This document shows positions 9,276-25,524 of a DNA stretch of 36,145 nucleotides, in pieces. The DNA is from Bacillota bacterium (GTDB lineage: Bacteria; Sysuimicrobiota; Sysuimicrobiia; Sysuimicrobiales; Segetimicrobiaceae). The notes under the pieces are model-generated. The model did not search any database. It was not told the DNA's origin and was given only the letters and a program-made list of their open reading frames with translations. Made by a program: the position numbers and the translations under genes. Where the stretch lies: the NCBI GenBank assembly GCA_021324255.1, contig JAJPJL010000028.1, forward strand, positions 1 through 36,145, given 5' to 3'. Positions within the stretch are counted from its first letter, which is position 1; each line of letters opens with the position of its first letter.

Positions 9276-9755
9276 ATGGTGACAAGCACGCCTGACCAGA
9301 CTGACCGCACGCTAGAGGTGGTGAAGGAGGAGAAGATTTCGGCCCCGATCGGGGTCGTATTCGAGGCGCTCCTGGAGCAACTGGGGCCGCACTTCGACAC
9401 CCCCGAGGGGTCCGCGTTCCCGATGAAACTGGAACCGTGGCCGGGAGGCCGCTGGTACCGAGATCTCGGGGACAATGCGGGCCACCTGTGGGGGCATGTG
9501 CAGGTGATCAAACCTCCCGCGCTCCTGGAGATCTACGGGCCGATGTTCATGTCGTATCCGGTCGCCCAGCACGTGCAGTGGCGGTTGACGGCGGACGGCG
9601 GCGCGACGCGTCTCACCGTGACGCATCGGGCGTTTGGGCCGATCGCTCCGGAGCATCGCGACGGCGTGGGACGGGGATGGAGCCACATTCTCAGCAGGAT
9701 CCGCGAGGCCACAGGGCGCCGCGCGGCGGCGCAGGAGCGGAAGGTCGAGCGATAA
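9276..9755 (+). CDS. SRPBCC (AHSA1-like) domain protein
   Basis: A 159-residue START/Bet v1-like domain protein with the AHSA1 pattern: an early strand (VVKEEKISAPIGVVFEALLE), a middle segment with WPGGRWYRDLG and a VQVIKPPALLEIYGP strand, and a C-terminal helix (RDGVGRGWSHILSRIRE). Such proteins bind hydrophobic ligands in a helix-grip cavity. GGGAGGAG lies 5 nt before the ATG. It is co-transcribed with the ArsR-type repressor, a very common pair in which the SRPBCC protein may bind or process the inducer; the ligand is unknown. Confidence 0.9.
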   Translation: MVTSTPDQTDRTLEVVKEEKISAPIGVVFEALLEQLGPHFDTPEGSAFPMKLEPWPGGRWYRDLGDNAGHLWGHVQVIKPPALLEIYGPMFMSYPVAQHVQWRLTADGGATRLTVTHRAFGPIAPEHRDGVGRGWSHILSRIREATGRRAAAQERKVER

Positions 9756-9900
9756 CCCGCGCGTCGACGGACGCCAGCGTCCCGCACGAGTTCAGATCCG
9801 ACGTCCGCTCGGAAACATCACGTCGCTGCGCGCGCTGCTCGGCACACTCCGACTCTTTGGATAGTCACGGGGAAGCCGCAGCCGTCGCCACGTTCTTACC

Positions 9901-9935
9901 CGGCCCCGACCGGCCAATCCGGCCGGCCGGGGCCG
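9901..9935 (+). terminator. strong GC hairpin after the SRPBCC gene
   Basis: CGGCCCCG (9901-9908) pairs with CGGGGCCG (9928-9935), and CCGGCC (9910-9915) with GGCCGG (9921-9926), around a 5-nt AATCC loop with one A/C mismatch. The 14-bp stem is strong, but no U-run follows, so termination is inferred from position only. Confidence 0.45.
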
Positions 9936-10018
9936 CGCTTTGCGGACCCCGGGACGGCGAGGCGGGCGAGTACTGACCGTACGCAGTTTTCGCCGCGGCA
10001 CCGCGGCGCATCGTTGAA

Positions 10019-10048
10019 TTGACAGCCTCGCGGCTGGGTTGGTACTAT
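10019..10048 (+). promoter_or_regulatory. promoter of the 10.5-15.6 kb transport operon
   Basis: TTGACA (10019-10024), an 18-nt spacer and TACTAT (10043-10048), followed at once by the palindromic operator. The geometry and the TTGACAGCC start match the regulator promoter at 21804-21775 on the other strand. Confidence 0.7.
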
Positions 10049-10068
10049 GCTACTCACCGATGATTAGC
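10049..10068 (+). promoter_or_regulatory. operator for the FCD regulator (copy 1)
   Basis: GCTACTCA, spacer CCGA, then TGATTAGC: an 8-4-8 inverted repeat with one mismatch, lying over the predicted transcription start. Over 25 nt (10047-10071) it is identical at 23 positions to the operator in front of the regulator gene at 21752-21776. A dimeric winged-helix repressor bound here would block initiation. Confidence 0.75.
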
Positions 10069-10472
10069 TATTCCGGCGTTTCGCTGACTTCCGCGTGCGG
10101 CGCCGGCGGCCAGACGGGCGCGGCCCCGGGCCCGCGGCGCGCCGCGGGGGAGGCGGTTCCTCGCGGCGGCCGATGAGACCGCAGGCGCCCGGCGCGCATG
10201 GCTCCACGAGTGTCTCCCCGTCTGACCCGATCGCGGCGCGCACCGATGTGGCGCGAAGCAAGCCCGCGCCGGTCGCCTGCCCTCATGGGCGACGCGCCAC
10301 CGTGTCCTACCTCAGCGCCGGCGCACTTCGGCCCGGCTGCGACGAGCCGGGCCGTCCGGGCTTGTCCGCCCCCGAGATGAGCTGCACCTACCATTGGTAC
10401 TGGTCGTACACGGGGGCCGTGCTGGAGCGGGGCATGGTCGTGAACGTCGAGGTACCCTACTATATGCTGTAA
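10060..10472 (+). pseudogene. probable collapsed regulator-M24 peptidase copy
   Basis: Downstream of the copied promoter an ATG at 10060 begins MISY, the same four residues that open the regulator at 21763, and then diverges. Near the other end, in a frame that stops at 10470-10472, the residues AVLERGMVVNVEVPYYML resemble the C-terminal metal-ligand region of M24 peptidases, normally continued by a G-rich turn and an HVED motif, but the frame stops here. The order (regulator start, then M24 end) is that of the intact genes at 21763-19698. I infer a duplicated unit that lost its middle. The M24 match is only about 20 residues. It now forms the roughly 500-nt leader of the transport operon. 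Confidence 0.4.
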
Positions 10473-10565
10473 CCTGAGACCACGATCGGACGGGGACCGG
10501 AGGGGCGGCGGCCGCGGCGCTCGAAACGCCGCGGCTCGTCAGCAGGACGGAAAGGGGGCGGGACG

Positions 10566-11714
10566 ATGGAACGGGGACGGCGGCACGGCATGACCCGGAG
10601 AGAGCTCCTGCGGCGGGGAGGCGCGGCCGGCGCCGCGATCGGCCTGGGCGCGTGGGGAGGGGTCGCGCTCGGCGCCCCGGGCCGGGCCGCGGCGGCGCCG
10701 GTCGCGGGGGGGCGCAAGGTGCAGCTCACGGAGTTCATCTGGATCGGGGGCGGCCAGGGGGTGGTGCCGAGGGAGGTCAAGGCGTCCTACGAGAAGGCGA
10801 ACCCCAACGTCAACATCGAGCTGTACGAAGGCACGAACGCGGTCACCTACCCGAAGATCGTGGCGCAACGGCAGGTGGATCCCAACAAACCGCTCATCAA
10901 CTTCGGCTTCTTCAACGTCGACGCCCAGACGAAGGGCGAACTCGACGACATCTGGATGAGCCTCGACCCCGCGAAGATCCCCAACATGGCGAACGTCCAC
11001 CCGAGCTACCACCGGCCGCACGACACCGGCATCGGATGGGGCTTCAGCGCCGTGGGGATCCTCTACAACAAGAAACTCGTCAAGGAACCCCCGACCAGCT
11101 GGAACGACCTGTTTGCGCCCCGCTTCAAGGGCAAGGTCATGCTCTTCGACTACGCCTGGGGGTTCAACGGACTGCTGGGGGTCGCCTACGCGAACGGCGG
11201 CGACGCCAAGCACATCGACGCGACGTTCGAGAAGTTCAGCAAGGCGGCGCAGGACGGGCAGTTCCTCGCCCTCTTCACCACCAACGAGCAGGTCAAGGAC
11301 GCCCTGGCGCGCGGCGAGGCCCTGATCGCGCCGTACTTCACCAGTTTTGCGATCACCTGGAACCAGGAGACCCCGGGCGGCAACGGCCCCTTCGCCTACG
11401 CGATCCCCAAGGAGGGCGTCGTGGCTTTCACCTACTACTTCGATATCATCAAGGGCTCCACGCCCGACCAGGTGGCGGTCGCATCGGAGGTGATCAACAC
11501 CTACCTCTCCAAGCCCACGATCGAGCGGTACTGCAACCTCACCGCGACGATCCCCGCGGTGAAAGGCGTCTCGCTGAAGCCCGAACTGCAGCAGGAGGCG
11601 GTCTTCCAGCCGAGCGTGGTGGAGAAGGCGATCCAGCCGGACTGGGTCACCACGAACACGCAGAACAACGCCTGGAAACAGCGGTGGGACCGCGAGGTCA
11701 AGGCCAAGATGTAG
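10566..11714 (+). CDS. ABC transporter substrate-binding protein, spermidine/putrescine type
   Basis: A 382-residue receptor of the family 1 / PotD-like group. The Tat-type signal TRRELLRRGGAAGAAIG (about residues 11-27) is followed by an Ala-rich cleavage region. In the mature part VPREVKASYEKANPNVNIEL, NTGIGWGFSAVGILYN-like and PTSWNDLFAPRFKGKVMLFD segments are typical of polyamine/iron/thiamine-type receptors. GGAAAGGGGG precedes the ATG. It is first in an operon with an ATPase, two permeases and a deacylase. The ligand is unknown; family membership alone does not prove polyamines. Confidence 0.92.
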   Translation: MERGRRHGMTRRELLRRGGAAGAAIGLGAWGGVALGAPGRAAAAPVAGGRKVQLTEFIWIGGGQGVVPREVKASYEKANPNVNIELYEGTNAVTYPKIVAQRQVDPNKPLINFGFFNVDAQTKGELDDIWMSLDPAKIPNMANVHPSYHRPHDTGIGWGFSAVGILYNKKLVKEPPTSWNDLFAPRFKGKVMLFDYAWGFNGLLGVAYANGGDAKHIDATFEKFSKAAQDGQFLALFTTNEQVKDALARGEALIAPYFTSFAITWNQETPGGNGPFAYAIPKEGVVAFTYYFDIIKGSTPDQVAVASEVINTYLSKPTIERYCNLTATIPAVKGVSLKPELQQEAVFQPSVVEKAIQPDWVTTNTQNNAWKQRWDREVKAKM

Positions 11715-11745
11715 CGCCGGCTCCGGCGCGCCCCCGGGCCGTGGC

Positions 11746-12840
11746 ATGACAGCCGCGTCCGCGCCGCCGGCGGTCGACCTGCAGCGCGTCCACAAGCGGT
11801 ACGGACCGGTCCATGCCGTCCGCGACGTGTCGCTCTGCATCCGCGAGGGCGAATTTTTCTCGCTGCTCGGCCCGAGCGGCTGCGGCAAGACCACGGTGCT
11901 GCGCATGATCAGCGGCTTCGAGACGCCCACGGAGGGGCACGTGTATCTGCAGGGGCGGCTCGCGGACACGATCCCACCGTACCGCCGGGACACGAACCTC
12001 ATCTTCCAGCACCTCGCGCTGTTTCCGCACCTCGACGTCTACGACAACATCGCGTTCGGGCTGCGGTTGCGGCGGCTGCCCCGCGACGAGATCGGCCGCA
12101 AGGTGCGCGGCGCCCTGGAGCTCGTGGATCTCGCCGGGTACGAGTCCCGCCGGATCCACCAGCTCAGCGGCGGACAGAAGCAGCGCATCGCGATCGCCCG
12201 CGCGCTCGTCAACGAACCCGGGGTGCTCCTGCTCGACGAGCCGCTGGGGGCGCTCGACCTCCGCCTGCGGATGCAAATGCAGGTGGAGCTGAAGCAGATC
12301 CAGCACCGGGTAGGGACCACGTTCGTCTACGTCACGCACGACCAGACCGAGGCCCTGACGATGTCCGACCGGATCGCGGTCATGAACCACGGCACGGTGG
12401 AGCAGATCGGGACCGGCCGCGAGGTCTACGAGCGGCCGCGCACGCGGTTCGTGGCGACGTTCCTCGGCGACAGCAACCTGTTCGAGGCGCGCGTCGAAGC
12501 GCGCGGCCCCGGCGAGACCCTGCTCCGCGCCGCCGGCCAGCGTCTGGTCGCGCCGCCCGCCGCGGCGGGCGCCGGGGACGCGGTGGTGCTGTGCGTGCGG
12601 CCGGAGCGCGTGCGGCTCCTGGCGCCCACCGGCCCGGCGCCCGCCGGCTACGAGAACCGGATCGACGCCCGGGTCCAGGACGTGATCTTCAAGGGAGCCT
12701 TCATCGAGTACCGGCTCGCGGCCGCCTGGGGCGCGCCCCTCATCGCGCAGGTCCACGCGGACGGGGCTGCGGCCATCGAGCGCGGCGCCGCGGTGATCGT
12801 CGCGTGGCGCCGGGACGACGGGGTGGTCCTCACCGAATGA
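11746..12840 (+). CDS. ABC transporter ATPase, PotA type
   Basis: A 364-residue ATPase driving the importer. Walker A GPSGCGKTT (42-50), Q-loop Gln88 in FQHLALFPHL, signature LSGGQ (140-144), Walker B LLLDE (Asp164, Glu165) and switch His198 in YVTHDQTEA are all present. The C-terminal third (about 250-360) is a TOBE regulatory domain typical of PotA/UgpC-type subunits. It lies 31 nt after the receptor gene, with no obvious ribosome site. Its stop overlaps the next start as ATGA (12837-12840). Confidence 0.95.
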   Translation: MTAASAPPAVDLQRVHKRYGPVHAVRDVSLCIREGEFFSLLGPSGCGKTTVLRMISGFETPTEGHVYLQGRLADTIPPYRRDTNLIFQHLALFPHLDVYDNIAFGLRLRRLPRDEIGRKVRGALELVDLAGYESRRIHQLSGGQKQRIAIARALVNEPGVLLLDEPLGALDLRLRMQMQVELKQIQHRVGTTFVYVTHDQTEALTMSDRIAVMNHGTVEQIGTGREVYERPRTRFVATFLGDSNLFEARVEARGPGETLLRAAGQRLVAPPAAAGAGDAVVLCVRPERVRLLAPTGPAPAGYENRIDARVQDVIFKGAFIEYRLAAAWGAPLIAQVHADGAAAIERGAAVIVAWRRDDGVVLTE

Positions 12841-13733
12841 ACGCCGCGGCCGCGCCGGGGCGCACCGGCTGGGCGCGCGGCCGCGCGCTCGTCGTGCCCG
12901 GGCTCCTCGGCCCCGCGGTGGTGTTCATCGCGGGCCTCCTGCTGACCGCGCTCGGCATCCTGCTCGTCAACAGCGCCTACCACTTCACCGGCACCCGCAT
13001 CGAGCCGCGGGCCACGTTCGAGGCTTACCGGCGGTTCTTCACCGACCCTTTCTACGCCGGGGTGGTCTGGGAAGAGATCCGTCTCGCCGTCACCACCACC
13101 GCGATCTGCCTGGCCATCGGCTACCCGACCGCGTACGCCATCGCCAAGATCCGGCGGCCCAACTGGGTGATCGCCGCCTACATCCTGGTCTTCTCCCCGC
13201 TGCTCACGAGCAGCATCGTCCGCGCGTACGGATGGCTGGTGATCCTCTCCCGCGGCGGGCTCGTGAACTGGCTGCTGACCGTGACGCACCTCGTCGCGGG
13301 GCCGGTGCGCCTGGTCTTCAACTTCACGGGGGTGGCGATCGCGCTCGTCCACGTGCTGCTGCCGTTCACCGTGTTTCCGATCCTCAGCATCCTGCTGCGC
13401 ATGGATCCCGCGCTGCGGGAGGCGTCGGCCGACCTGGGCGCGACGCGAGCACAGACGTTCCTCCGGGTGACGTGGCCGCTGTCGTTCCCCGGGCTGTACG
13501 CGGCCGCGCAGCTCACGTTCGTGCTGGCGATGAACGCCTATGTCACCCCGCAACTGTTGGGCGGCGGGCGCGTCCAGGTCCTCCCGCTGCTCATCTACGA
13601 GAACATCTCGGACCTCAACTGGCCCCTCGCGGCCGTGGAGGCGATCGTCCTCATCACGCTGGTCTGGACCGCGATGTTCGCCTCCAACGTGCTCTTCCGC
13701 CGCCGCCTGGCCGCGGCCGGTGAGCGCGAATGA
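12837..13733 (+). CDS. ABC transporter permease, PotB type
   Basis: A 298-residue membrane permease with about six hydrophobic segments, beginning after a short Arg-containing tail (LVVPGLLGPAVVFIAGLLL). The EAA loop REASADLGATRAQTFLRVTW lies in the C-terminal half. The ATG at 12837 overlaps the ATPase stop by 4 nt, and its own stop overlaps the next start (13730-13733), so the three proteins are translationally coupled. An in-frame extension upstream to 12591 is antisense-free but lies inside the ATPase gene and is rejected. Confidence 0.94.
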   Translation: MNAAAAPGRTGWARGRALVVPGLLGPAVVFIAGLLLTALGILLVNSAYHFTGTRIEPRATFEAYRRFFTDPFYAGVVWEEIRLAVTTTAICLAIGYPTAYAIAKIRRPNWVIAAYILVFSPLLTSSIVRAYGWLVILSRGGLVNWLLTVTHLVAGPVRLVFNFTGVAIALVHVLLPFTVFPILSILLRMDPALREASADLGATRAQTFLRVTWPLSFPGLYAAAQLTFVLAMNAYVTPQLLGGGRVQVLPLLIYENISDLNWPLAAVEAIVLITLVWTAMFASNVLFRRRLAAAGERE

Positions 13734-14545
13734 CCGCCGCCAGGCGGGACCCCGTCACCCTGGCCCTGTGGGCCTTCCTGGGCGCGGTGGGGCTCTACAT
13801 GCTCGCACCGCTGATTTTCGTGACGATCGACTCGTTCAACCCGTCCACCTACGGGACGTTCCCGCTGCCGGGCGTGACACTGCGCTGGTACGCCAACGTG
13901 CTGCAGGTGCCGGAGTTCCGGGCGGGACTCGTCAACTCGCTGGTCGTGGCCGTCGGCGCCACCGCGGTCGCCGTCACGCTGGGCACGCTCGCCGCCTACG
14001 GGCTGACGCGCTACCGCTTCCGCCACCGCGAGCTCGCGCGCTCCTTCCTCCTCCTCCCCATCATCGTGCCGGCGATCGTCTTCGGGGCCGCGCTCTTCCT
14101 GCTCTACATCCGCATCGGCCTCTACGGCACCCGCACCGGGCTCGTGCTGGGCCACGCGCTGCTCGGCCTGCCGTTCGTGATGTCCATCACGGCCGCCAAC
14201 CTGCAGACCGCGGGCCGAGAGTACGAGGAGGCCGCGATGGATCTCGGGGCCAACCCGATCGTCACGTTCTTCCTGGTCACGCTCCCGACCATCCGGCCCG
14301 GCCTGATCGTGAGCGCGCTGTTCGCGTTCGTGACGTCGTGGGACCAGGTGGAGGTCTCGCTGTTCATCACGCGGCCCCGCAACAACACCCTGCCGATCGC
14401 GATGTTCAACTACGAGCAGAACTACCAGGACCCCACGCTGGCGGCGATCTCCGCGATCCTCATCGCGTTCGCCGTCGTCCTGGTCCTGGTGGCGGTCTCG
14501 ATCCTCAAGACGCACGAGTACCGGCGGCTCGTCGAGCGGGAGTAG
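13730..14545 (+). CDS. ABC transporter permease, PotC type
   Basis: A 271-residue permease, partner of the PotB-type subunit. It has six hydrophobic segments. The EAA loop EYEEAAMDLGANPIVTFF is present at roughly 165-182. LITPRN-like FITRPRNNTLPIAMF is typical of PotC/PhnV relatives. The ATG overlaps the previous stop as ATGA. The deacylase gene follows by 32 nt. Confidence 0.94.
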   Translation: MTAARRDPVTLALWAFLGAVGLYMLAPLIFVTIDSFNPSTYGTFPLPGVTLRWYANVLQVPEFRAGLVNSLVVAVGATAVAVTLGTLAAYGLTRYRFRHRELARSFLLLPIIVPAIVFGAALFLLYIRIGLYGTRTGLVLGHALLGLPFVMSITAANLQTAGREYEEAAMDLGANPIVTFFLVTLPTIRPGLIVSALFAFVTSWDQVEVSLFITRPRNNTLPIAMFNYEQNYQDPTLAAISAILIAFAVVLVLVAVSILKTHEYRRLVERE

Positions 14546-14577
14546 CGCCCGGCGCGCCGCGAGGAGGCCACGGACGC

Positions 14578-15567
14578 ATGAGCCAGCCGTTCGAGATCGG
14601 CACGGTCCGGGTCGGCCCGGGCAACCTCGGGACGGGGTACATCGACAGCGCCTACCTGCGCGACGGGACGCGCGTGCGCATCCCGCTCGTCGTCGCGCAC
14701 GGCGCCGCCCCCGGGCCCATGCTGTGGGTGGGGTCCGCCGTGCACGGCGACGAGATCCCTGGGTGCGAGGTCATCCGCCGCCTGATGCGGGAACGGCTGG
14801 ACCCGCGCGCGCTCCGCGGCACGGTCGTCGCGGCCCCGGTACAGCATCCGGTGGCGTTCCTCACCTGCGCCCGGCTCACGGTCCACGACGGCGTGAACAT
14901 CAACCGCGTGTTCCCCGGGGACGCCGCGGGCACGCTGACGCAGCGCGTCGCCCACGACCTCTTCCACCAGGGGGTCGCGCGCTCGGACGCGGTGCTCGAC
15001 ATCCACTCCAACGCCATCGGCGCCGTCTGCTTCAACATCGTCCGCACCGGCGGGTCCGGGCCGGCGTGGGACGGGCAATGGACGCTGGCCAACGCCTTCG
15101 GCATCAGCGTCTCGGTCGGGCCCGTCGGGCAACTGGGTCTCGCCGGCACCCTGCAGGACGCGGCGATCCAGGCCGGCAAGCCCGCGCTGACGGTCGAGTT
15201 GTCGGGCGGATACGTGTGGGAGGAACCGTCGGTCCGCGCGGGGCTCCTCGGCGTCCTCAACGTGATGAAGGCGCTCGGGATGCTCGATGGGGCCCCGGAG
15301 CCGCAGACGGAGGTCCCGGTCATCCCAGGGCGGCTCACGAACCGCCGCTACCTCGTCTGCGACAAGGGTGGCCTGGTCCGGCCGCTCCGGCCGCTCGGCT
15401 CCAAAGTGGCCGCGGGCGAGCCCGTCGCGGTGCTCTACGACGTGTTCGGGGAGGCGGTGGAAACGATCGCCAGCCCGATCGACGGGTGGGTCATCACCTA
15501 CCCGGTCGCCGGCAACCGCACCGCGGTGAGCGGCGACACCGTGGCGTTCGTGTTCGGGACGGCGTAG
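14578..15567 (+). CDS. succinylglutamate desuccinylase/aspartoacylase-family deacylase
   Basis: A 329-residue zinc hydrolase. Ligands His56 and Glu59 in VHGDEIPG, His143 in DIHSN, an arginine anchor in NINRVFPG (107-114) and catalytic Glu207 in VELSGG are all visible. The C-terminal part (about 250-329) resembles the biotinyl-lipoyl-like beta domain found after AstE-type catalytic domains (PLGSKVAAGEPVAVLYD). GAGGAGG lies upstream of the ATG. As the last gene of the importer operon it probably removes an acyl group from the imported compound. It is a distant paralogue of the 6875-7810 product. Confidence 0.9.
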   Translation: MSQPFEIGTVRVGPGNLGTGYIDSAYLRDGTRVRIPLVVAHGAAPGPMLWVGSAVHGDEIPGCEVIRRLMRERLDPRALRGTVVAAPVQHPVAFLTCARLTVHDGVNINRVFPGDAAGTLTQRVAHDLFHQGVARSDAVLDIHSNAIGAVCFNIVRTGGSGPAWDGQWTLANAFGISVSVGPVGQLGLAGTLQDAAIQAGKPALTVELSGGYVWEEPSVRAGLLGVLNVMKALGMLDGAPEPQTEVPVIPGRLTNRRYLVCDKGGLVRPLRPLGSKVAAGEPVAVLYDVFGEAVETIASPIDGWVITYPVAGNRTAVSGDTVAFVFGTA

Positions 15568-15570
15568 CCG

Positions 15571-15588
15571 CGGCCGGTCAGCCGGCCG
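15571..15588. terminator. GC hairpin between convergent operons
   Basis: CGGCCGG (15571-15577), loop TCAG, CCGGCCG (15582-15588). The 7-bp stem sits in the 33-nt gap between two converging operons and could stop transcription from both sides. There is no U-run, so this is tentative. Confidence 0.4.
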
Positions 15589-15600
15589 GCCCCGCCCGGG

Positions 15601-17619
15601 TCACGCGCGTCGGGACGGCGTGGCCGCGGGCGCGATGCGGTCGCGGGACGCCCCGGCCATGCCCTCGGCGAGCCCCCGCACGACCGCCGCCAGCTCCTCC
15701 GGCGCGGGGACGCGGCCCGTCGCGGCGCGCCGGTCCACGTCTGCCATCGCCCGCTGTTTGAGGTAGTTGCGCAGCGGGAGCGGACGCTCCATGAGCGCCC
15801 GGTTGAGAGCCGTCTGCATCGCGTCCGTCCACACGGCCTCGAAGGCGTCCCGCTCCGGACCGAAGACGAACGGCGTCCGCCGGGGCGGCCGGCTACGGCG
15901 GAGGACCTCGGTCCCGGCCGGGTCGACGCGGCCGGCGGCGACCGCCACGCCGTAGTCGCGTCGTGCCGCCTCGGGGGACACGAGGCCGCGCCGCACGTCC
16001 GCGGCCACTGCCTCGGGGTCGCGCTCGTAGGGGTCGCCGTACCCGCCCCCGCCCTGCGAGAGGAACGTGACCGTGTCCCCGGGCTGCAGCAGCAGTTCAT
16101 CGATGCGGCCGGTGGGCGCCGCCTCCGGCGTGCCCAGGTTCTTCACGGCGGTGCCGTTCTCGCCAGGCAGCCCGCCGAGCCGGCCCCACGGCCGGAACTG
16201 CATCCGCTCCATGCCGCGCGCGGTCATCACCGTGTCCGGCGCGAACACTCGCACCGTGAGCTCGATGCCGGTGCCCCCGCGGTACCGGCCAGCGCCGCCC
16301 GAGTCCGGGCGCAGCCCGTACCGCTCGATCAGGATCGGCATGTCGGTCTCCAGCGTTTCCGCGGGGACGTTCCGGAGGTAGCCCACGGAAAAGTCCATCC
16401 CGTCGATCCCGTCGCGCATCGGGCGCGCCCCCGAGCCCCCACAGATCGGCTGCACCACGCCGACCTGGCGCTTGCCGGTGCGCACGTCGTCCATCGCCAG
16501 CAGCACAATGCAGGCCTGGCCGGCGCCGACCGCCGGCAACCGGTCCGGCTGGGCCTGGCTCAGCGCGCCGATCACGACGTCCATGAGCCGGATGAACGTC
16601 GCGGCGCGCACGCCGCAGGCGGCCGGCGGCTCGGGGTTCAGGACGCTGCCGGCCGGCGCGCGGTTCCGGACCATCCGCACCATCCCGGTGTTCCACGGGC
16701 ATGCCGGGTCGAGGGTCCGGAAGTACCGCACCAGCGACGGGACGAGCATGTAGTGGCCCTGCTTGTCGCAGGACGGCAGGTTGAAGGCGGCGCGCACCTG
16801 GGGGTCGGTGCCCTCGAAGTCCATGAGGATCTCGTCACCGCGCACGACCAGCCGGCAGCGCAGCCGGATCGGGTAGCCGCCGGGGCCGCCCTCCAGATAG
16901 TCCCAGAACGTGTACGCTCCGTCCGGGATCTCCCGGATCATCGCCCGCACCCGGCGCTCCGCGTAGGCCAGCAGGTCCTGGATTCCCTGCTCGACCTCGG
17001 CGGCGCCGTAGCGGGCCACGAGCTCGTGCAGGCGGCGCTCGCCGGTGTGGAGCGACGCCATGAGCGCCCGCAGGTCACCCCAGTTCTGCTCCGGGATGCG
17101 GCAGTTGTCGAGAAAGATGCGCAGGATCTGCTCGTTGAGCCGCCCGCGCTCGTAGAGCTTCACGGGGGCGATCCGGACGCCCTCCTGGAAGATGTCGTAG
17201 CAGGTCGGCGAGATGCTGCCCGGTACCTTCCCGCCGACGTCCGAGCTGTGCACGAAGCAACAGCCGAACGCGATGATCCGCCCGTCCGCGAAGATCGGCT
17301 TGACGAGGAACACGTCCGCGAGGTGCGTGGACATCCCGGCCGTCGCGTACGGGTCGTTGGTGATGACGATGTCGCCCTCGTGCCACTCCGGGACCGCGGC
17401 CACGACACCCTCCCCGGGGATGCCGAGCGACAGGTTGACGCCGGTCACGACCGGCGACCCGAACGTCTCGCCGGCGGGCGAGAGCAGAAACGTCCCGAAG
17501 TCCGCCGTCTCCTTCACGAAGACGGTGAACCCCGTGCGCAGCACGACGTTTGCCATCTCCTCCGCGATCGCCTGGATCCGGTTCTTGAAGATCTCGAGGA
17601 ACACCGGGTCCGTGGTCAT
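15601..17619 (-). CDS. hydantoinase B / 5-oxoprolinase-type subunit
   Basis: A 672-residue HyuB-family protein. ATG 17619 overlaps the stop of the HyuA gene as ATGA (17616-17619). Family motifs: DPVFLEIFKNRIQAIAEEM at the N-terminus, NDPY (88-91), HLADV (99-103), HSSDVGG (124-130). The C-terminal region contains GGGGYGDPYERDP, typical of the family. HyuA and HyuB together hydrolyse cyclic imides or lactams (hydantoins, N-methylhydantoin, 5-oxoproline) with ATP, or carboxylate ketones in the acetone carboxylase branch. The open frame continues upstream to 18660, but that part is antisense-free shadow of HyuA in another frame. Confidence 0.93.
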   Translation of the reverse strand: MTTDPVFLEIFKNRIQAIAEEMANVVLRTGFTVFVKETADFGTFLLSPAGETFGSPVVTGVNLSLGIPGEGVVAAVPEWHEGDIVITNDPYATAGMSTHLADVFLVKPIFADGRIIAFGCCFVHSSDVGGKVPGSISPTCYDIFQEGVRIAPVKLYERGRLNEQILRIFLDNCRIPEQNWGDLRALMASLHTGERRLHELVARYGAAEVEQGIQDLLAYAERRVRAMIREIPDGAYTFWDYLEGGPGGYPIRLRCRLVVRGDEILMDFEGTDPQVRAAFNLPSCDKQGHYMLVPSLVRYFRTLDPACPWNTGMVRMVRNRAPAGSVLNPEPPAACGVRAATFIRLMDVVIGALSQAQPDRLPAVGAGQACIVLLAMDDVRTGKRQVGVVQPICGGSGARPMRDGIDGMDFSVGYLRNVPAETLETDMPILIERYGLRPDSGGAGRYRGGTGIELTVRVFAPDTVMTARGMERMQFRPWGRLGGLPGENGTAVKNLGTPEAAPTGRIDELLLQPGDTVTFLSQGGGGYGDPYERDPEAVAADVRRGLVSPEAARRDYGVAVAAGRVDPAGTEVLRRSRPPRRTPFVFGPERDAFEAVWTDAMQTALNRALMERPLPLRNYLKQRAMADVDRRAATGRVPAPEELAAVVRGLAEGMAGASRDRIAPAATPSRRA

Positions 17620-19667
17620 CGCGCGGCCTCCCCGACGAGGTTCCCGACGTCGTCCGCGCGTACCCGGAATCCCGGCGGCACGAACGTGGTGGTGTCGTAC
17701 TGCTCCACGACGAGCGGGCCCGGCGTCCACCCGTCCGGCCGGAGCGCGGCGCGCGGGAGCACGGCCACGTCCCGCATGCGCCCGTCGACGAACACGGACC
17801 GTGTCTCGCGGGCGCCGGCGGGCGCTGCGCCCGCCGGCGCCCGGAGGCGCGACACTTTTGCCGTCACGCCGACGACGGTCGCGCGCAAGTTGACGAAGGC
17901 GACCGGCGCCTCGTCGTCGCTCACCCCGAAGATCGCGTGGTAGGCTTGGTGGAACCGCCGGGCGATCGCGGCGCGGCGGCTCCGCTCCTCGCCGGCGACG
18001 GCGACCTCGATCTCGAACGCCTGCCCCTCGTAGCGCATGTCGGCGCTGTAGAGGACGAACGAGGAGGCGAGCGGAATCCCCTGCGCGCTCTCCTCCTCCA
18101 GCCACCGCCGGCCCTGCCGCTCCAGCTCCGCGTAGGCCTCCTCCAGCGCGGCGTCGCTCGTCTCGTAGTCGACGCGGTAGAGGGTGCGCACGAAGTCGTT
18201 CCGCAGGTCGGCGACGACGCACCCCAGCGCGCACAGCGTGCCCGGCGACGGCGGGATCAGCACGCGTCCGATGCCCACCTCCCGGGCCAGCAAAAACGCG
18301 TGCGTGGGCCCGGCCCCGCCGTACGCCAGCAGCGTGAAGTCGCGCGGGTCCACGCCCTTGCGCGCCATGAGCGGCGTGAACTGCGCGTACATGTTGGCGG
18401 TGGCGACGTCCAGGATGGCCTGCGCGGCCGCGCGCGAGTCGCGCCCGATCGACCGGCCGAGCGCCGTGAGAGCGGCCGCCGCCCGCTCCGGCTCCAGCGG
18501 CATCCGCCCCCCCAGGAACCGGTCCGGGGCGATGATCCCGAGGTGCACGTATGCGTCCGTCACGGTGGGCTGCGTCCCGCCGCGGCCGTAGCAAGCGGGC
18601 CCGGGGTCCGCGCCCGCGCTGCGCGGCCCCACCTTCAAGACGCCCGCCGCGTCGAGCCACGCGATCGAGCCGCCGCCGGCGCCGATCGAGGACACGTCCA
18701 CCGCCGGCATGATGACCGGGAAGTCCCCCACCTGGTTTTCGGTGGAGTAGGCGGCATGCCCGTCGACCACGATGGCCACGTCCGCGCTCGTCCCGCCCAT
18801 GTCGACCGTGACGATCCTGGTCGCCCCCGCGAGCCGGGCCACGTGGGCCGCGCCGATCACCCCGGAGGCCGGCCCGGAGAGCAGCGTCTGCACCGGCTCG
18901 TCCGCCGCGCGGGACGCGGTCATCACCCCGCCGTTGGACTTCGTCGACAGCGCCTGCGCGCGCAGGCCCCGCGCGGCGGCGCCGGCCTCCAGGCGGTGGA
19001 AGTAGCCCGCCATGCGCGCGCCGATGTACGCGTTCATCACCGCCACCAGGCAGCGCTCGTACTCACGCTGCTGCGGCCACAGGTCCGCGCTGGCGCATAC
19101 GAACAGCGAGGGGAACTCCGCGCGGACGAGGTCCCGAGCCTGCCGCTCGTGCGCGGGGTTCGTATAGGCGTGCATGAAGCAGACCGCCGCCGCGGTCACG
19201 CCTGCGCCGGCCAGGCGCCGCACGGCCTCCCGCACCTGGTCGAGGTCGAGCGGCCGGTGGACGCGGCCATCCGCGAGCAGCCGCTCGTCGATCTCCACCA
19301 CGAGGTCCCGGGGCACCAGCGGAAGCGACTTGTCCCCGTAGAAGTCCGTGGTGTTGTCCAGCCGGAGCCGCCGGATCTCCAGCACGTCGCGGAAGCCGCG
19401 GGTTACAAGCAGCCCCGTCGTCGCGCCGGTCCGCTCGATGAGGGTGTTCACGGCCAGCGTGGTGCCGTGCACGAACAGCGCCACATCCTCCGGCGCGACG
19501 CCCGACCGGCGCAGCTCGTCGAGCGCCGTGAAGATCGCCTCCTCCGGCGCGCCCGGCACGGACGGCGTCTTCAGCGTGGCGACGACCGATCCGGCGTCGT
19601 CGGCCACCATCACGTCCGTGAACGTTCCGCCGATGTCCACCCCGAGCCGGTAGCGCCCCGCCGTCAC
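17616..19667 (-). CDS. hydantoinase A / 5-oxoprolinase-type subunit
   Basis: A 683-residue HyuA-family ATP-binding subunit. The ASKHA phosphate-binding segment GVDIGGTFTDVMV (9-21), VHGTTLAVNTLIER, LLSGPASGVIGA, TVDMGGTSADVAI and LLAYGGAGPTHAF are all intact, as in hydantoinases/oxoprolinases. The start is GTG 19667 with GGGGGGAAGG upstream, 30 nt after the M24 gene. Co-encoded with HyuB by a 4-nt overlap. In this family ATP phosphorylates the ring carbonyl before hydrolysis. Which ring compound is used here is not visible. Confidence 0.94.
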   Translation of the reverse strand: MTAGRYRLGVDIGGTFTDVMVADDAGSVVATLKTPSVPGAPEEAIFTALDELRRSGVAPEDVALFVHGTTLAVNTLIERTGATTGLLVTRGFRDVLEIRRLRLDNTTDFYGDKSLPLVPRDLVVEIDERLLADGRVHRPLDLDQVREAVRRLAGAGVTAAAVCFMHAYTNPAHERQARDLVRAEFPSLFVCASADLWPQQREYERCLVAVMNAYIGARMAGYFHRLEAGAAARGLRAQALSTKSNGGVMTASRAADEPVQTLLSGPASGVIGAAHVARLAGATRIVTVDMGGTSADVAIVVDGHAAYSTENQVGDFPVIMPAVDVSSIGAGGGSIAWLDAAGVLKVGPRSAGADPGPACYGRGGTQPTVTDAYVHLGIIAPDRFLGGRMPLEPERAAAALTALGRSIGRDSRAAAQAILDVATANMYAQFTPLMARKGVDPRDFTLLAYGGAGPTHAFLLAREVGIGRVLIPPSPGTLCALGCVVADLRNDFVRTLYRVDYETSDAALEEAYAELERQGRRWLEEESAQGIPLASSFVLYSADMRYEGQAFEIEVAVAGEERSRRAAIARRFHQAYHAIFGVSDDEAPVAFVNLRATVVGVTAKVSRLRAPAGAAPAGARETRSVFVDGRMRDVAVLPRAALRPDGWTPGPLVVEQYDTTTFVPPGFRVRADDVGNLVGEAAR

Positions 19668-19697
19668 GCCCGCCTTCCCCCCGCGGATCCCATCGGG

Positions 19698-20825
19698 CTA
19701 CCGGCCGACCACGAGCATCTCGGTCGTGTCGATGTGGGTCGTCAGCCGCTCGCCGCCGCGGCCGGTCACGCGCACGAGGTCCTCGACGTGGAACCGGCCG
19801 AGGCCCGGAAAGGCGTGCGCGATCTCCACGCAGATCAGCATCTCGGGCGCGAGCGTCTCCGTCTCAAACCGGTTCAGAATCGGGTACTCGTGGAGCCGGA
19901 GGCCCAGGCTGTGGCCGATCGCGTCCATCTCGAAGTCCATGCCGAGCTCGCGGCCGATCTCCACCGACTCCTGGTAGAGGTCCCGCGCCCGCCGGCCCGG
20001 CGCCGCCCGCGTGATCATCTCGCGCTGCAGGGTGACGATCTTGCGGTAGGCGTCGCGCTGCGCCGGCGAAGGCTCGCCGATGATCGCCATCCGGCCGTAG
20101 TCGGTGTAGTAGCCGCAAAAGAAGCCCACCATGTCGAGCCGCATGATGCGGCCGGGCTCCACCGGGGTGTCGTCCGGGACGGAGTGCGCGATCAGCGTGC
20201 GCTCCGGGCCCGAGGCGAAGCTCACGAACGGCACCCAGTCCGCGCCGCGCTCTTGGAGCGTCCGCACCATCCGGCCGGCGATCGAGCGCTCGCTCTCGCC
20301 CGGTGCCGTCGCGGCGTAGGCATCCTGCACGGCCGTCTCCCACACGCGCGCGATCTCCGTCATGCGGCGGATCTCCTCCGGCGTCTTGACCATGCGCGAC
20401 CGGTTCAACACGCGCTCCGCGTCGAGGATCTCGAGGTGCGGCAGCGCCCCGCGCAGGGCGTCGCCGTCCCGCGCCGGCAGGTAGCCCGTCTCCAGCCAGA
20501 CGCGCCCCCGGTCGAGTCCGCGGTCCTGCAACGCCCCGACCAGACCGTCGACGGGCTGGACCGCGTGCTCGGTGTACGGCACGATCTCGTCGATCCACGA
20601 CTGGGTGCGCGCCGTGTACTCGACCACCGTGCTCACCACGAAGAACGGCGCGCCCTCCCGCGGGTAGACCGCGAAGGCGAGCCGGTCGGGAATCATGCGC
20701 TGGCTGATGATGAACACCCCCGCGAGGTGCTGCACGTTCTCCGGGGAGACGCCGATCACCGCGTCCACGCCCGCCGCGGCCATCTCGCGCCGCAGCGTGG
20801 CCTCGAGGTGCTGGCGTTTCGTCAT
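19698..20825 (-). CDS. M24-family metallopeptidase (Xaa-Pro dipeptidase/creatinase fold)
   Basis: A 375-residue pita-bread-fold enzyme. All five metal ligands can be read: Asp231 and Asp242 (LDMVGF and YYTDYGR), His305 (GHSLGL), Glu334 (CVEIAH) and Glu348 (HVEDL). The N-terminal half is the creatinase-like domain. Because the metal set is intact it should be a metallohydrolase cleaving a C-N amide bond, not a metal-free creatinase. ATG 20825 is chosen for GAGGAGGCGAGG just upstream; a frame from 20873 lacks a site. It is followed by HyuA and HyuB. The regulator gene ends 155 nt upstream, with no separate promoter seen. Confidence 0.93.
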   Translation of the reverse strand: MTKRQHLEATLRREMAAAGVDAVIGVSPENVQHLAGVFIISQRMIPDRLAFAVYPREGAPFFVVSTVVEYTARTQSWIDEIVPYTEHAVQPVDGLVGALQDRGLDRGRVWLETGYLPARDGDALRGALPHLEILDAERVLNRSRMVKTPEEIRRMTEIARVWETAVQDAYAATAPGESERSIAGRMVRTLQERGADWVPFVSFASGPERTLIAHSVPDDTPVEPGRIMRLDMVGFFCGYYTDYGRMAIIGEPSPAQRDAYRKIVTLQREMITRAAPGRRARDLYQESVEIGRELGMDFEMDAIGHSLGLRLHEYPILNRFETETLAPEMLICVEIAHAFPGLGRFHVEDLVRVTGRGGERLTTHIDTTEMLVVGR

Positions 20826-20980
20826 GCCTCGCCTCCTCGCGATGGGCCGGCCGGGACGCCCCGCCGCCGGCACTGCTGCCCGTGCTCGCGCGCGCCAGCG
20901 CGGACGCCGGTCACGGCCGCCCTCCGGAACCGAAGGCGGCGTCCACGCCGGCCACCGGGGTTACCGCGACCGCCTCCGCC

Positions 20981-21763
20981 TCAGCGGCCACCGAGGCCGC
21001 CCGTCACCCCGTCGCCCGCGGCGGCGCCGCCGCCGAGCCACCGCCTCCAGTACCGGTCCAGGTCCTCCGCGAGCTTCAGGAGGTGGTTCTCCATGGCCTT
21101 GCGCGCCGCCGCCGGGTCGTGCGCGCGGATCCCCGCCAGCACGGCGCGATGGTCGACGACGAGACGCCCGCCGACGGCGGCGCGCATCGACGTCATCAGC
21201 AGGTCGTACCGGCGATGCTGCCGGAGCAGCGACACGAGCGAGATCAGGACCTCGTTGCGCGAGGCGCGGGCGACCTCGAGGTGAAACGACACGTCCTCGT
21301 CGCGGCCGGACTCGCCCTTGCGGATGCTCTCGGACTGCCGCTCGATCAGCTCCTCCATCCGGCGGATCGCCTGCGGCGAGGCGTGCGCGGCCGCGAGCGC
21401 CGCCGTCTCTCCCTCGATCACCCGCCGGGCGGCGAGCAGTTCCAGCAGGTGCCTCCGGTCCCCGCGCCGCAGCGTGTCGAGCAACGCGTCGCCCGAGAGA
21501 CGCAGGCGCGCCTCTTCGTCGTACCGCCGCAGGGCCGCGACACCCCGTTCGGTGAGCACCCGTCCCTCCACGCTCACCTTGCGCACGAGGCCTTCCGCGT
21601 CCAGTTCCTGGAGCCTCCGCCCCACGGTGGGCACGCTGACGACGATCCCCTGCTTGCGGAGTTGCAGGTTGATGGCGCCCTGCCCGACGGGACCGGGGCT
21701 CGAGGCGATGACTCCCAGGATGGCCGCGTCGATGCCCGAGAGGGTTGGGGCATAGCTAATCAT
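20981..21763 (-). CDS. FCD-domain transcriptional regulator with NrpR/RNase R-type winged helix
   Basis: A 260-residue regulator. The C-terminal half is an FCD ligand-binding domain with the metal-site pattern Asp157-x3-His161 (DVSFH), His205 and His227, as in FadR-subfamily GntR proteins. The N-terminal 80 residues are not a standard GntR helix-turn-helix: AILGVIASSPGPVGQGAINLQ then VSVPTVGRRLQELDAEGLV and VLTERG resemble the HTH_12 winged helix seen in NrpR and RNase R. The start codon lies inside the palindromic operator and about 5 nt after the predicted transcript start, with no ribosome site. It probably represses its own operon and the convergent transport operon until an acid-type metabolite binds. 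Confidence 0.85.
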   Translation of the reverse strand: MISYAPTLSGIDAAILGVIASSPGPVGQGAINLQLRKQGIVVSVPTVGRRLQELDAEGLVRKVSVEGRVLTERGVAALRRYDEEARLRLSGDALLDTLRRGDRRHLLELLAARRVIEGETAALAAAHASPQAIRRMEELIERQSESIRKGESGRDEDVSFHLEVARASRNEVLISLVSLLRQHRRYDLLMTSMRAAVGGRLVVDHRAVLAGIRAHDPAAARKAMENHLLKLAEDLDRYWRRWLGGGAAAGDGVTGGLGGR

Positions 21764-21774
21764 CGCTGATTAGC
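21755..21774 (-). promoter_or_regulatory. operator for the FCD regulator (copy 2, autoregulation)
   Basis: A perfect 8-4-8 inverted repeat: GCTAATCA, spacer TCGC (plus strand), TGATTAGC. It covers the transcription start and the start codon of the regulator gene, so binding should shut off the regulator-M24-HyuA-HyuB operon. The second copy is at 10049-10068. Confidence 0.8.
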
Positions 21775-21804
21775 ATCATAGCAGTTTGCGCTTGCGGCTG
21801 TCAA
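21775..21804 (-). promoter_or_regulatory. promoter of the regulator-M24-hyuAB operon
   Basis: On the minus strand TTGACA (21804-21799), an 18-nt spacer and TATGAT (21780-21775), then the operator. The -35 to operator distance is 30 nt, identical to the promoter at 10019. Confidence 0.8.
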
Positions 21805-21944
21805 TTTGTCGCCGGCCGGACGTCGCTGCCGGCCGCGCGACCACGTCGAGCCGCCGTGCGGCGCAGCCGCATACGGGCCGTCGGGACCCGGCATGACGTT
21901 TGCGGCGGCGGCATGAAGGGAGGAACTCGAGCGTAGGATACCCG

Positions 21945-22664
21945 TCACGATCGATCGCGGAACGGCGGCGCGCTCGACCCCGCAGCCGACCGCTTCCTTG
22001 CCAGCGGCGTCCGCGGCTTGGTCCCCTCGGGCTCGGGATACAGGTTGAGAAAGGCCGCCGTAGCATCGCGCGCCCTTCGCGCGATCTCGCCGGCGCTCGG
22101 ACGATCGATCACACGAAGCAGCAACCCCAAGGTCAGATCACCCCGGAGCAATCCGTCGAACTGTTCCGTCATCTGCACGGGATCGCCGCCAAGGAGTCCC
22201 GATGACCGAGCCTTGGTCATGATCTCTGTCAAGGCGGCGCGCGTGATCCTGCGGGCGGCAGAGTCCAGGATCTGTGCGACCTCGGGCGCGCGCACGGCCT
22301 CGGCAATCGCGAGCCGGAACACGGCAATGACGACCGGATCGCCTATCTCGCTCAAGAGGCGCACCCCGAAGGCGGCAAGTCCTTGCGCCAAACTTTCCCG
22401 GTCACGCGGCTCGGGCAGCCCCGCGGGCGCGGTGAGGCGCTGCGCCCGCTCGTCGATACATGCGGCGAGCATTCTCCGCTTGTTGCCGACCAGCGCATAG
22501 AGCTCTCGCTTCGAAACGTGTGCACGCGCGGCGATCTCGCGCGTGCTCGTTTCCGCGTAGCCGTGCTTCATAAAAGCTGCGAAGGCTGCGGCCAGAATCC
22601 GCTGCCGGACCGAGCGTTCGTCACCGCGTGCCCGGCGCCGCTCCGACGCCCGCCGTGCCGCCAT
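21945..22664 (-). CDS. TetR-family transcriptional regulator
   Basis: A 239-residue TetR-type repressor. The HTH lies at about residues 38-62 (ETSTREIAARAHVSKRELYALVGNKRRML), with the preceding helix RQRILAAAFAAFMKHGYAE. The C-terminal ligand domain is of the AefR-like type. ATG 22664 is chosen for GGCGGAG just upstream; longer frames to 22865 would run through the operators. It is divergent from the membrane protein at 23010, whose promoter carries three identical 8-bp palindromes that are likely its binding sites. The C-terminal tail (KRSAAGSSAPPFRDRS) is poorly ordered. Confidence 0.9.
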   Translation of the reverse strand: MAARRASERRRARGDERSVRQRILAAAFAAFMKHGYAETSTREIAARAHVSKRELYALVGNKRRMLAACIDERAQRLTAPAGLPEPRDRESLAQGLAAFGVRLLSEIGDPVVIAVFRLAIAEAVRAPEVAQILDSAARRITRAALTEIMTKARSSGLLGGDPVQMTEQFDGLLRGDLTLGLLLRVIDRPSAGEIARRARDATAAFLNLYPEPEGTKPRTPLARKRSAAGSSAPPFRDRS

Positions 22665-22675
22665 CAAACTCCGCC

Positions 22676-22705
22676 TTGACGTGGTACCATCCGGCACCCT
22701 ATTAT
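22676..22705 (+). promoter_or_regulatory. promoter facing the 23-kb membrane protein gene
   Basis: TTGACG (22676-22681), an 18-nt spacer and TATTAT (22700-22705). A TGGTACCA site lies directly behind the -35 box and two more follow the start point. This is a classic repressed-promoter layout. Confidence 0.6.
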
Positions 22706-22732
22706 CTGCATCGATGGTACCATCTGGTACCA
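22682..22732. promoter_or_regulatory. triple TGGTACCA operator array
   Basis: Three perfect 8-bp palindromes TGGTACCA at 22682-22689, 22715-22722 and 22725-22732. Sites 2 and 3 are 10 bp apart, one helical turn, and site 1 is 33 bp (about three turns) from site 2, so all lie on one face of the DNA. They lie in the TetR/membrane protein divergent region and are the likely TetR operators. Confidence 0.65.
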
Positions 22733-22763
22733 TTCGACGATCAGTGTAGAGGAGGGAATCGTC

Positions 22764-22850
22764 ATGGTCAAGCCTATGCTCGTCGGCGAGTTTCCCGCCA
22801 CCGGCTCGTCTGCCGAGCGGCAAGCGCCCCGCTTGCCCGCGACCGTCTGA
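22764..22850 (+). CDS. 28-residue small ORF with strong ribosome site
   Basis: ATG 22764 is preceded by GAGGAGGG with 7-nt spacing, one of the best ribosome sites in the window. The frame encodes MVKPMLVGEFPATG and a further 14 residues before TGA. It lies on the TetR-controlled transcript, 160 nt before the membrane protein gene. It may be a genuine small protein, a leader peptide or the stump of a lost gene. I do not recognise the sequence. Confidence 0.35.
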   Translation: MVKPMLVGEFPATGSSAERQAPRLPATV

Positions 22851-23009
22851 CTGCCGCGGGGCCATCGTGAGAGCAGGCGCAGCATCACGTCGTACGGCGC
22901 GTCGGAGGGGACCGGCGGCACCACATCTGCAGGAGCTGCCCGCGGTCCAGACGCTGGCACGAGATTCGCAGGGAGTTTCGTAAGCGACGCAATACGAGGG
23001 AGGAGATCG

Positions 23010-23977: not shown

Positions 23978-24880
23978 TCATGAGGCCGGAGCCTCCATCC
24001 GGCGCTGGCCCGCTGGCAGCGCGCGCCGTAGCGCACGGTAGCGCGCGGGGGTCAGTCCGAACGCCGACCTGAACGCCCGCGTGAAGTGCGCCTGGTCGGC
24101 AAATCCCGCTTCGTACGCGACCTCGGCCAGCGGGTGGTCCCTGTGTATCCGCTCGCGGGCGAAGTCCAGCCGGCGCATGAGCAGATAACGGTAGGGGCTG
24201 GTCCCGAACATGATTCTGAACTGACGGGCCAGGTCATAGCGCGTCAATCCTGTGACCGACTCGAGTTCCATCGAACGCACGACGCGGGTCCTTTCCGTGT
24301 CCAGGAACTGCCGCGCCCGCTCCAGGGCTCGGACATCGACGCACCGAGACGTCCTCGGGCCGGCGCCTCCCTGCTCTCCGGCCAGCAGGCCTTCCGCCAG
24401 GTCGAGGACGACGCTGTCCATCGCCAGCGATTGCGTCCGGGCGCGAAAGGCTTCCTCGACCGCGCACCGGAGGCGCGGGTGTGCGGAGACGGCCTCGACA
24501 AACGGCAGCGGGCCGGGCTTTCCGCGGAGGACCCGGAGCGCCTCGGCCAGGAGCGATGGCTGGACATAGACGATCCGATACCCGAACCCCTCGCTGGTGC
24601 CGGCGCGTCCGTCGTGGACCTCGTCCGGATAGAGCGCGGTCACCTGCCCGGGAGTGCTCGCGTGGACCGAGCCGCGGTAGTTGAACACCTGCACGCCGCA
24701 GTCGGTCACGCAAACCGCGTACGCGTCGTGCCGGTGCCTTTGGTAGGCTTCACCCGCGAACCACGCGCTGAGGAGCTCGATGCCCTCGACCGGCCTCGTG
24801 CTGGTGATCCGGCCCGCGACCGTCCCCCGGCACGATCGTTCAAGACCCTCGCCGGCCCACCTGTTTTGCTGAAAGCGCAT
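23978..24880 (-). CDS. AraC-family transcriptional regulator
   Basis: A 300-residue regulator. The N-terminal cupin-type sensing domain shows YQRHRHDAYAVCVTDCGVQVF with paired His. The C-terminal double HTH contains YDLARQFRIMFGTSPYRYLLMRRLDFARERI and AEVAYEAGFADQAHFTRAFRSAFGLTPARYR, the full AraC/XylS signature. ATG 24880 follows GGAGGCGAGCC. It is divergent from the LysE-type exporter with only 44 nt between the starts, so it most likely controls that exporter. Confidence 0.94.
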   Translation of the reverse strand: MRFQQNRWAGEGLERSCRGTVAGRITSTRPVEGIELLSAWFAGEAYQRHRHDAYAVCVTDCGVQVFNYRGSVHASTPGQVTALYPDEVHDGRAGTSEGFGYRIVYVQPSLLAEALRVLRGKPGPLPFVEAVSAHPRLRCAVEEAFRARTQSLAMDSVVLDLAEGLLAGEQGGAGPRTSRCVDVRALERARQFLDTERTRVVRSMELESVTGLTRYDLARQFRIMFGTSPYRYLLMRRLDFARERIHRDHPLAEVAYEAGFADQAHFTRAFRSAFGLTPARYRALRRALPAGQRRMEAPAS

Positions 24881-24924
24881 GGCTCGCCTCCAGAAGAGGC
24901 CTGTCGATTCGATGGAGGTCGGGT

Positions 24925-25524
24925 ATAACGACGGAGCAGATCGTAGCATTTCTCCTGTTCGCCGTTGCCGCCGCCGGCACCCCCGGCCCGAGCAACACGA
25001 TGCTGGCCGCGGTGGGCTCGCAGGCAGGTCTCCTACGAGGCCTGCCCAGCCTGCTCGGCCAGGTGACCGGCATGGGGCTGATCATGTTCCTGGTGCCACT
25101 TGGGCTTGGGAGTCTCGTTCTCCACTATCCGCTGTTGCATTGGATGCTCAAGGGCGTCGGCGGCGCGTTCTTGCTTTGGCTCGCGTGGAAAATCGCGACG
25201 GCGTCCGGCCGGGCTGATTCGCAGGCCGACGGGAACCCGGTGGGGTTTCTCGGCGCCGCCGTCTTCCAATGGGGCAACCCGAAGGCATGGGTCATCGTGA
25301 GCGCGGCCGCGGGCACCTTTCTCAATACACAGACCGGTAGTGCGGTCGCGCAGGCGACCTCGCTCGCGGGCCTGTTCGTCCTCGCGGCGCTGCCGAGTTG
25401 CTTCCCGTGGCTCGCATTCGGCGCCGGCGTCCGGCGTGTCCTGAATGATCCTCGCCGACAGAGAATCTTCAATATCACCATGGGCACCCTGCTCGCACTG
25501 TCGATCGTGCTTGTCGTCCGGTAG
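24925..25524 (+). CDS. LysE/RhtB-family exporter, apparent ATA start
   Basis: A 199-residue amino-acid exporter. The family N-terminus TTEQIVAFLLFAVAAAGTPGPSNTM (given here in parts: TTEQIVAFLLFAV, then AGTPGPSNTM) is encoded upstream of the first ATG (25000). The only plausible start in frame is ATA at 24925, placed 5 nt after GGAGGT. The TPGP motif of the first membrane segment requires this extension. Further segments: GLIMFLVPLGLGSLVL, GGAFLLWLAWKI, QWGNPKAW (family motif) and LFVLAALPSCFPWLAFG. Divergent AraC regulator. It exports amino acids or analogues; the substrate is unknown. Confidence 0.85.
   Translation: MTTEQIVAFLLFAVAAAGTPGPSNTMLAAVGSQAGLLRGLPSLLGQVTGMGLIMFLVPLGLGSLVLHYPLLHWMLKGVGGAFLLWLAWKIATASGRADSQADGNPVGFLGAAVFQWGNPKAWVIVSAAAGTFLNTQTGSAVAQATSLAGLFVLAALPSCFPWLAFGAGVRRVLNDPRRQRIFNITMGTLLALSIVLVVR

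Follow-up and report, generated by a model that had tools for sequence, protein, structure and literature searches.

A shared palindromic promoter-operator points to probable joint control of convergent hydantoinase and importer operons by an HTH_12-FCD regulator

Two promoter-operators of nearly the same build flank a convergent gene unit in the window (the whole stretch of 36,145 nucleotides that was analysed), and one of them holds the start codon of a regulator gene whose product joins an HTH_12 winged helix to an FCD domain. We propose that this protein is a repressor that recognizes the palindrome common to both sites, controls both operons and is released by a ligand of its FCD domain, an explanation to which we assign a probability of roughly 0.8. 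The regulator very probably binds the two palindromes, and very probably it represses its own operon. We infer its action on these sites because the palindrome tracks orthologues and paralogues of the regulator, and because a related palindrome tracks the protein family in Bacillota and others.

Two matching promoter-operators flank a convergent gene unit

The near-identical promoter-operator pair of the original prediction is real and lies at the coordinates first given (Table 1). Both copies consist of TTGACA, an 18-nt spacer and TATGAT or TACTAT, followed directly by GCTA(A/C)TCA-N4-TGATTAGC. Direct reading of the sequence gave the predicted 30 nt from the -35 box to the operator at each site, as well as the predicted 23 identical bases among the 25 that make up T, the palindrome and TATx. 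Two 8-4-8 palindromes had been predicted and both are present, although only the one on the minus strand is perfect. A generic sigma-70 scan of positions 9700-22000 returned exactly these two promoters, where shuffles gave a mean of 0.5.

The likeness of the two sites might in principle stem from a recent duplication or from chance, with no regulatory role, and the bases just outside the palindrome (TAT) are also common to both. However, a window search allowing up to three mismatches found two matches where shuffles gave an expectation of 0.04, and relatives with diverged flanks retain the site. A simple recent duplication is also disfavoured by the spacers between the -35 and -10 boxes, which are unlike while the palindromes are alike. 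Taken with these observations, an origin without regulatory role is hardly credible, and we read the pair as operators of one regulator. When the genome (142 contigs, 3.74 Mb) was searched for the pattern with up to three mismatches, as the original prediction had proposed, only the two window sites were found and no scatter of unrelated palindromes; the reversed-pattern control gave one match. The relaxed core with one mismatch occurs at 17 places in the same genome and is thus too loose for target prediction.

The plus-strand operon (SBP-PotABC-AstE) ends at 15567 and the minus-strand operon (regulator-M24-hyuA-hyuB, 15601-21763) ends at 15601, which leaves 33 bp between them and bears out the convergent arrangement first proposed. 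The gene content also reads as the single catabolic unit of about 11.8 kb that had been suggested. As HyuA/HyuB, the M24 enzyme and the deacylase are nearest to CapA/CapB, PepQ/DoeA and DoeB, respectively (all under curated cut-offs), it is plausible that an imported amide is degraded by ring opening or de-acylation, and the substrate would be a cyclic amide or an N-acylated amino acid.

Table 1. Features of the convergent unit and its flanking sites, with coordinates in the window.
Feature	Coordinates	Strand	Description
Promoter 1	10019..10048	+	TTGACA 10019-10024, 18-nt spacer, TACTAT 10043-10048; TG before -10
Operator 1	10049..10068	+	Palindrome GCTACTCACCGATGATTAGC; single base short of perfect symmetry
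Second M24-family gene, remnant	10287..10469	+	Internal deletion of ~80 codons, then stop; intact before importer gene in G002
Solute-binding protein, ABC importer	10590..11714	+	SBP_bac_8/SBP_bac_6; spermidine/phosphonate type
ABC ATPase, PotA-like	11746..12840	+	With TOBE_2
ABC permease, PotB-like	12837..13733	+	
ABC permease, PotC-like	13730..14545	+	
AstE/AspA-type deacylase	14578..15567	+	Nearest NCBIfam model DoeB, far under cut-off
Hydantoinase B/oxoprolinase subunit (HyuB)	15601..17619	-	CapB-like, under cut-off
Hydantoinase A/oxoprolinase subunit (HyuA)	17616..19667	-	CapA-like, under cut-off
M24/creatinase-type peptidase	19698..20825	-	Distant PepQ/DoeA-like; alternative start GTG at 20873
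Regulator	20981..21763	-	HTH_12 winged helix, residues 14-77; FCD, residues 108-228
Operator 2	21755..21774	-	GCTAATCAGCGATGATTAGC; perfect palindrome GCTAATCA-N4-TGATTAGC; regulator ATG (21763) inside
Promoter 2	21775..21804	-	TTGACA 21804-21799, 18-nt spacer, TATGAT 21780-21775; TG before -10

The regulator joins an HTH_12 winged helix to an FCD domain

The regulator had been predicted to be of FCD type, and this stood for the effector domain; the DNA-binding domain, by Pfam, is HTH_12 and not GntR, and the operator is without the GT/AC core of GntR sites. Pfam matched the protein to HTH_12 (PF08461) and FCD (PF07729, E 1.5e-21) only, the GntR winged helix (PF00392) being absent. HTH_12 is a winged helix of the RNase R type. 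A structure model built from 11 relatives (mean pLDDT 80.5) shows an all-helical FCD domain connected by a long linker helix to a winged helix, and in a fold search the solved structures closest to the regulator were FCD proteins, in agreement with the FCD assignment.

Residues D157, H161, H205 and H227, the Asp-x3-His, His, His pattern of FCD metal ligands known from LldR and TM0439, are invariant in an alignment of eight sequences. The regulator fits the ligand set of metal-binding FCD domains, and metal binding is predicted for it. Zinc has been reported in NanR (PMC8012715).

The regulator ATG begins 12 nt past the end of the -10 box, within the palindrome, and assuming the usual start of transcription 6-8 nt after the -10 box, the mRNA would be nearly leaderless. 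The start codon also lies inside the operator in both same-genus relatives, where MISY is encoded across it.

The site accompanies the regulator within its own phylum

The own phylum was represented in our comparison set by 43 genomes. In both same-genus relatives, G001 and G002, the genes regulator-M24-hyuA-hyuB, plus a second hyuB, lie behind TTGACA-18-TATNAT and a perfect palindrome, and the promoter and palindrome of the regulator operon are thus kept in all three members of the genus. With both elements kept at the orthologues, the predicted control of the regulator over its own operon is very likely.

The site was found also at paralogous regulators. Three of these (G001:C75, G001:C119 and G006:C26) have it with three changes within ~120 nt of the gene, and in G002:C31 a promoter and site (five changes) stand ahead of a single gene run, SBP'-potABC'-M20-hyuA-hyuB-hyuB2-regulator'. 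In G009 an importer operon faces an M24-hyuB-hyuA group, and that genome yielded no close relative of the regulator, which indicates that the gene set stays together without the regulator.

Among other matches, a site in G001:C51 (L082 7255-7274) holds the start codon of an MmgE/PrpD-type gene with ABC-ATPase and hyuB homologues near it, and matches to the relaxed core occur in G001:C35, G002:C2, G000:C46 and G007:C33.

Probable control of the importer operon

That the regulator also governs the importer/deacylase operon, the other half of the original prediction, has the matching site in its favour, while the decayed M24 gene in between and an importer operon without the site in G001 weigh against it; we consider such control likely. 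The distance from site 1 to the first importer gene is 521 nt. An Rfam scan of the window returned nothing at gathering scores, so this leader holds no known riboswitch. A generic scan found no other sigma-70-like promoter between site 1 and the importer gene, which argues against the alternative that the regulator acts on its own operon only, through site 2, while site 1 once drove the now decayed second M24 gene, the importer depending on a different promoter or on read-through only. The M24 remnant directly downstream of site 1 and the length of the leader would suit that alternative, as would the importer operon of G001 (C136), upstream of which no site was found; the importer operons of G003, G006 and G009 are likewise without one. 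In G002, however, the importer operon comes directly after an intact second M24 gene of like orientation, and both would be served by a promoter before that gene, and at G002:C31 a paralogous regulator shares one gene run with an importer behind a single site. Restriction of the regulator to its own operon is therefore unlikely, and control of both operons remains the reading that we favour.

Co-conservation of site and genes among relatives, a check that the original prediction had named, gave a divided result. G001 and G002 both have the site at their regulator operon, but the importer operon of G001 is without it and lies elsewhere, apart from the regulator operon. The importer operon of G002 lies on the same contig as the hydantoinase operon, convergent with it, and is cut on the 5′ side by the contig end. 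A site of the same promoter-operator build is found at G002:C50 (18029; L046 8030-8049), where it points outward ~180 nt from the contig end; this may be the missing site of the G002 importer operon, the join of C50 and C78 being putative.

Site 1 would start a nearly leaderless frame of 38 codons (10060-10176, MISYSGVSL...) whose first four codons are those of the regulator, and a similar short frame (MINYNALFP...) follows the G002:C50 site.

A related operator at HTH_12-FCD genes of other phyla

Relatives that matched the regulator over most of its length were found in Bacillota, Chloroflexi and Acidobacteria records. HTH_12 followed by FCD, both above the Pfam cut-offs, was found in seven Bacillota proteins, and the N-terminal region was matched in 39 of 398 genomes of the phylum of Lucifera. 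A position matrix of nine sites from the own phylum, with zero Bacillota input, was scanned over 30 Bacillota regulator loci. Its best match fell in the flank of the regulator gene at 23 of the 30 loci, and at 20 with a score above 8; the corresponding means for column-permuted matrices were 5.4 and 0.31, and the highest values among 300 of them were 23 and 14 (some of the loci are mutually related, and permutation keeps this relatedness constant). The lone permuted matrix that reached 14 of 30 is probably a near-identical permutation. About a third of the Bacillota loci are without the site. In the reciprocal scan, a Bacillota matrix gave the two window sites the two highest ranks of any position in the window, a test that is not fully independent, as the 19 sites of this matrix were assembled by hand from matches of the own-phylum matrix.

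In Bacillota the site typically reads aCtaCTCATCaATGATGAGc and is found immediately 3′ of the regulator, ahead of the gene that follows. The Bacillota consensus CTCATC-N3-GATGAG (CTCATC-n-ATGATGAG) is related to the window palindrome, with a half-site spacing that is not identical. The genome of Lucifera butyrica has 11 TCATCN3GATGA sites, of which 4 fall within 7.2 kb at the regulator locus. An adjoining palindrome of the TCAT-n-ATGA type appears to be a trait of HTH_12-FCD regulator genes. No site of the present type was found at L102 and L105 (Tissierellia and Enterocloster HTH_12-FCD relatives). Other palindromes, for example TCTATAGTACAATAACTATAGA, lie upstream there, so that DNA specificity may not be uniform within the family.

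The Bacillota HTH_12-FCD operons (L179-L208) encode a B12-binding protein, an FAD protein, a RidA-looking protein or a KamB-like reactivase.

A different regulator might bind the palindrome while the FCD protein regulates something else, and two regulator-like genes are nearby, a TetR-like one at 21945-22865 and an AraC-like one at 23978-24949 (both judged by sequence only). We regard this as very improbable, since the palindrome tracks the HTH_12-FCD family through orthologues, paralogues and another phylum with different neighbour genes. Recognition of the palindrome by the HTH_12-FCD protein itself can be extended to a wider proposal, which we think has a good chance of being correct: HTH_12-FCD proteins would form a distinct family of ligand-responsive repressors with a conserved operator of their own (CTCATC-n-ATGATGAG in Bacillota, TAATCA-N4-TGATTA here), present in about a tenth of the sampled genomes of the phylum of Lucifera and in other phyla, which arose when a winged helix of the RNase R/NrpR type was joined to FCD and which spread to very different catabolic operons. 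No earlier description of HTH_12-FCD proteins or of their operator was found in the open literature searched, the coverage of which was incomplete.

Proposed mechanism and significance

The regulator would be a one-component, ligand-responsive HTH_12-FCD repressor, which as a dimer would occupy the 20-bp palindrome from just past the -10 box over the start of transcription. The position of the sites argues for repression and not activation. At its own gene the bound regulator would also cover the start codon of the nearly leaderless mRNA and so block initiation. Through site 2 it would repress the regulator-M24-hyuA-hyuB operon, and through the matching site 1 the facing SBP-PotABC-AstE operon. 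Release of the regulator would come about when its FCD domain binds a carboxylate or amide ligand, which the importer brings in or which is formed from the imported compound.

If this is true, a predicted DNA site becomes available for a family of regulators that has apparently not been described, and its regulons can be mapped with this site across phyla, poorly known ones among them. The hydantoinase and importer genes of the window could then be handled as a single pathway that answers to one inducer. In that event the locus would also show plainly how one stretch of DNA can serve both as operator and as the opening codons of a gene that is nearly leaderless.

Comparison with known systems

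The DNA-binding domain family (HTH_12, PF08461) is common to the regulator and to NrpR-type regulators. Domain searches found no match to the NrpR effector domain in the regulator, which has FCD in its place, and the NrpR operator, GGAA-N6-TTCC, differs from the present site. Members of the FadR subfamily of GntR (LldR/CGL2915, TM0439, NanR, DhdR and PdhR) likewise have an FCD domain with the Asp/His metal-ligand pattern, and a dimer is expected in both cases; palindromic operators over the promoter and catabolic targets are also common to both. Their N-terminal domain is GntR, whereas here it is HTH_12. Their operator has a GT...AC core, NyGTM-N0-1-KACNy or TKGT/ACMA (PMC4494728), and this core is absent from TAATCA-N4-TGATTA.

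Among enzymes, the HyuA and HyuB of the window are most like CapA and CapB of the caprolactamase CapAB, and the M24 and AstE-like enzymes resemble DoeA and DoeB of ectoine degradation, in each case far under the equivalog cut-offs. Compared with known hydantoinase/oxoprolinase and Doe operons, such genes are joined here by a PotABC-type importer and an HTH_12-FCD regulator. As a catabolic regulon the convergent unit is ordinary apart from its shared operator, and the shared operator of the HTH_12-FCD family seems to be the new part.
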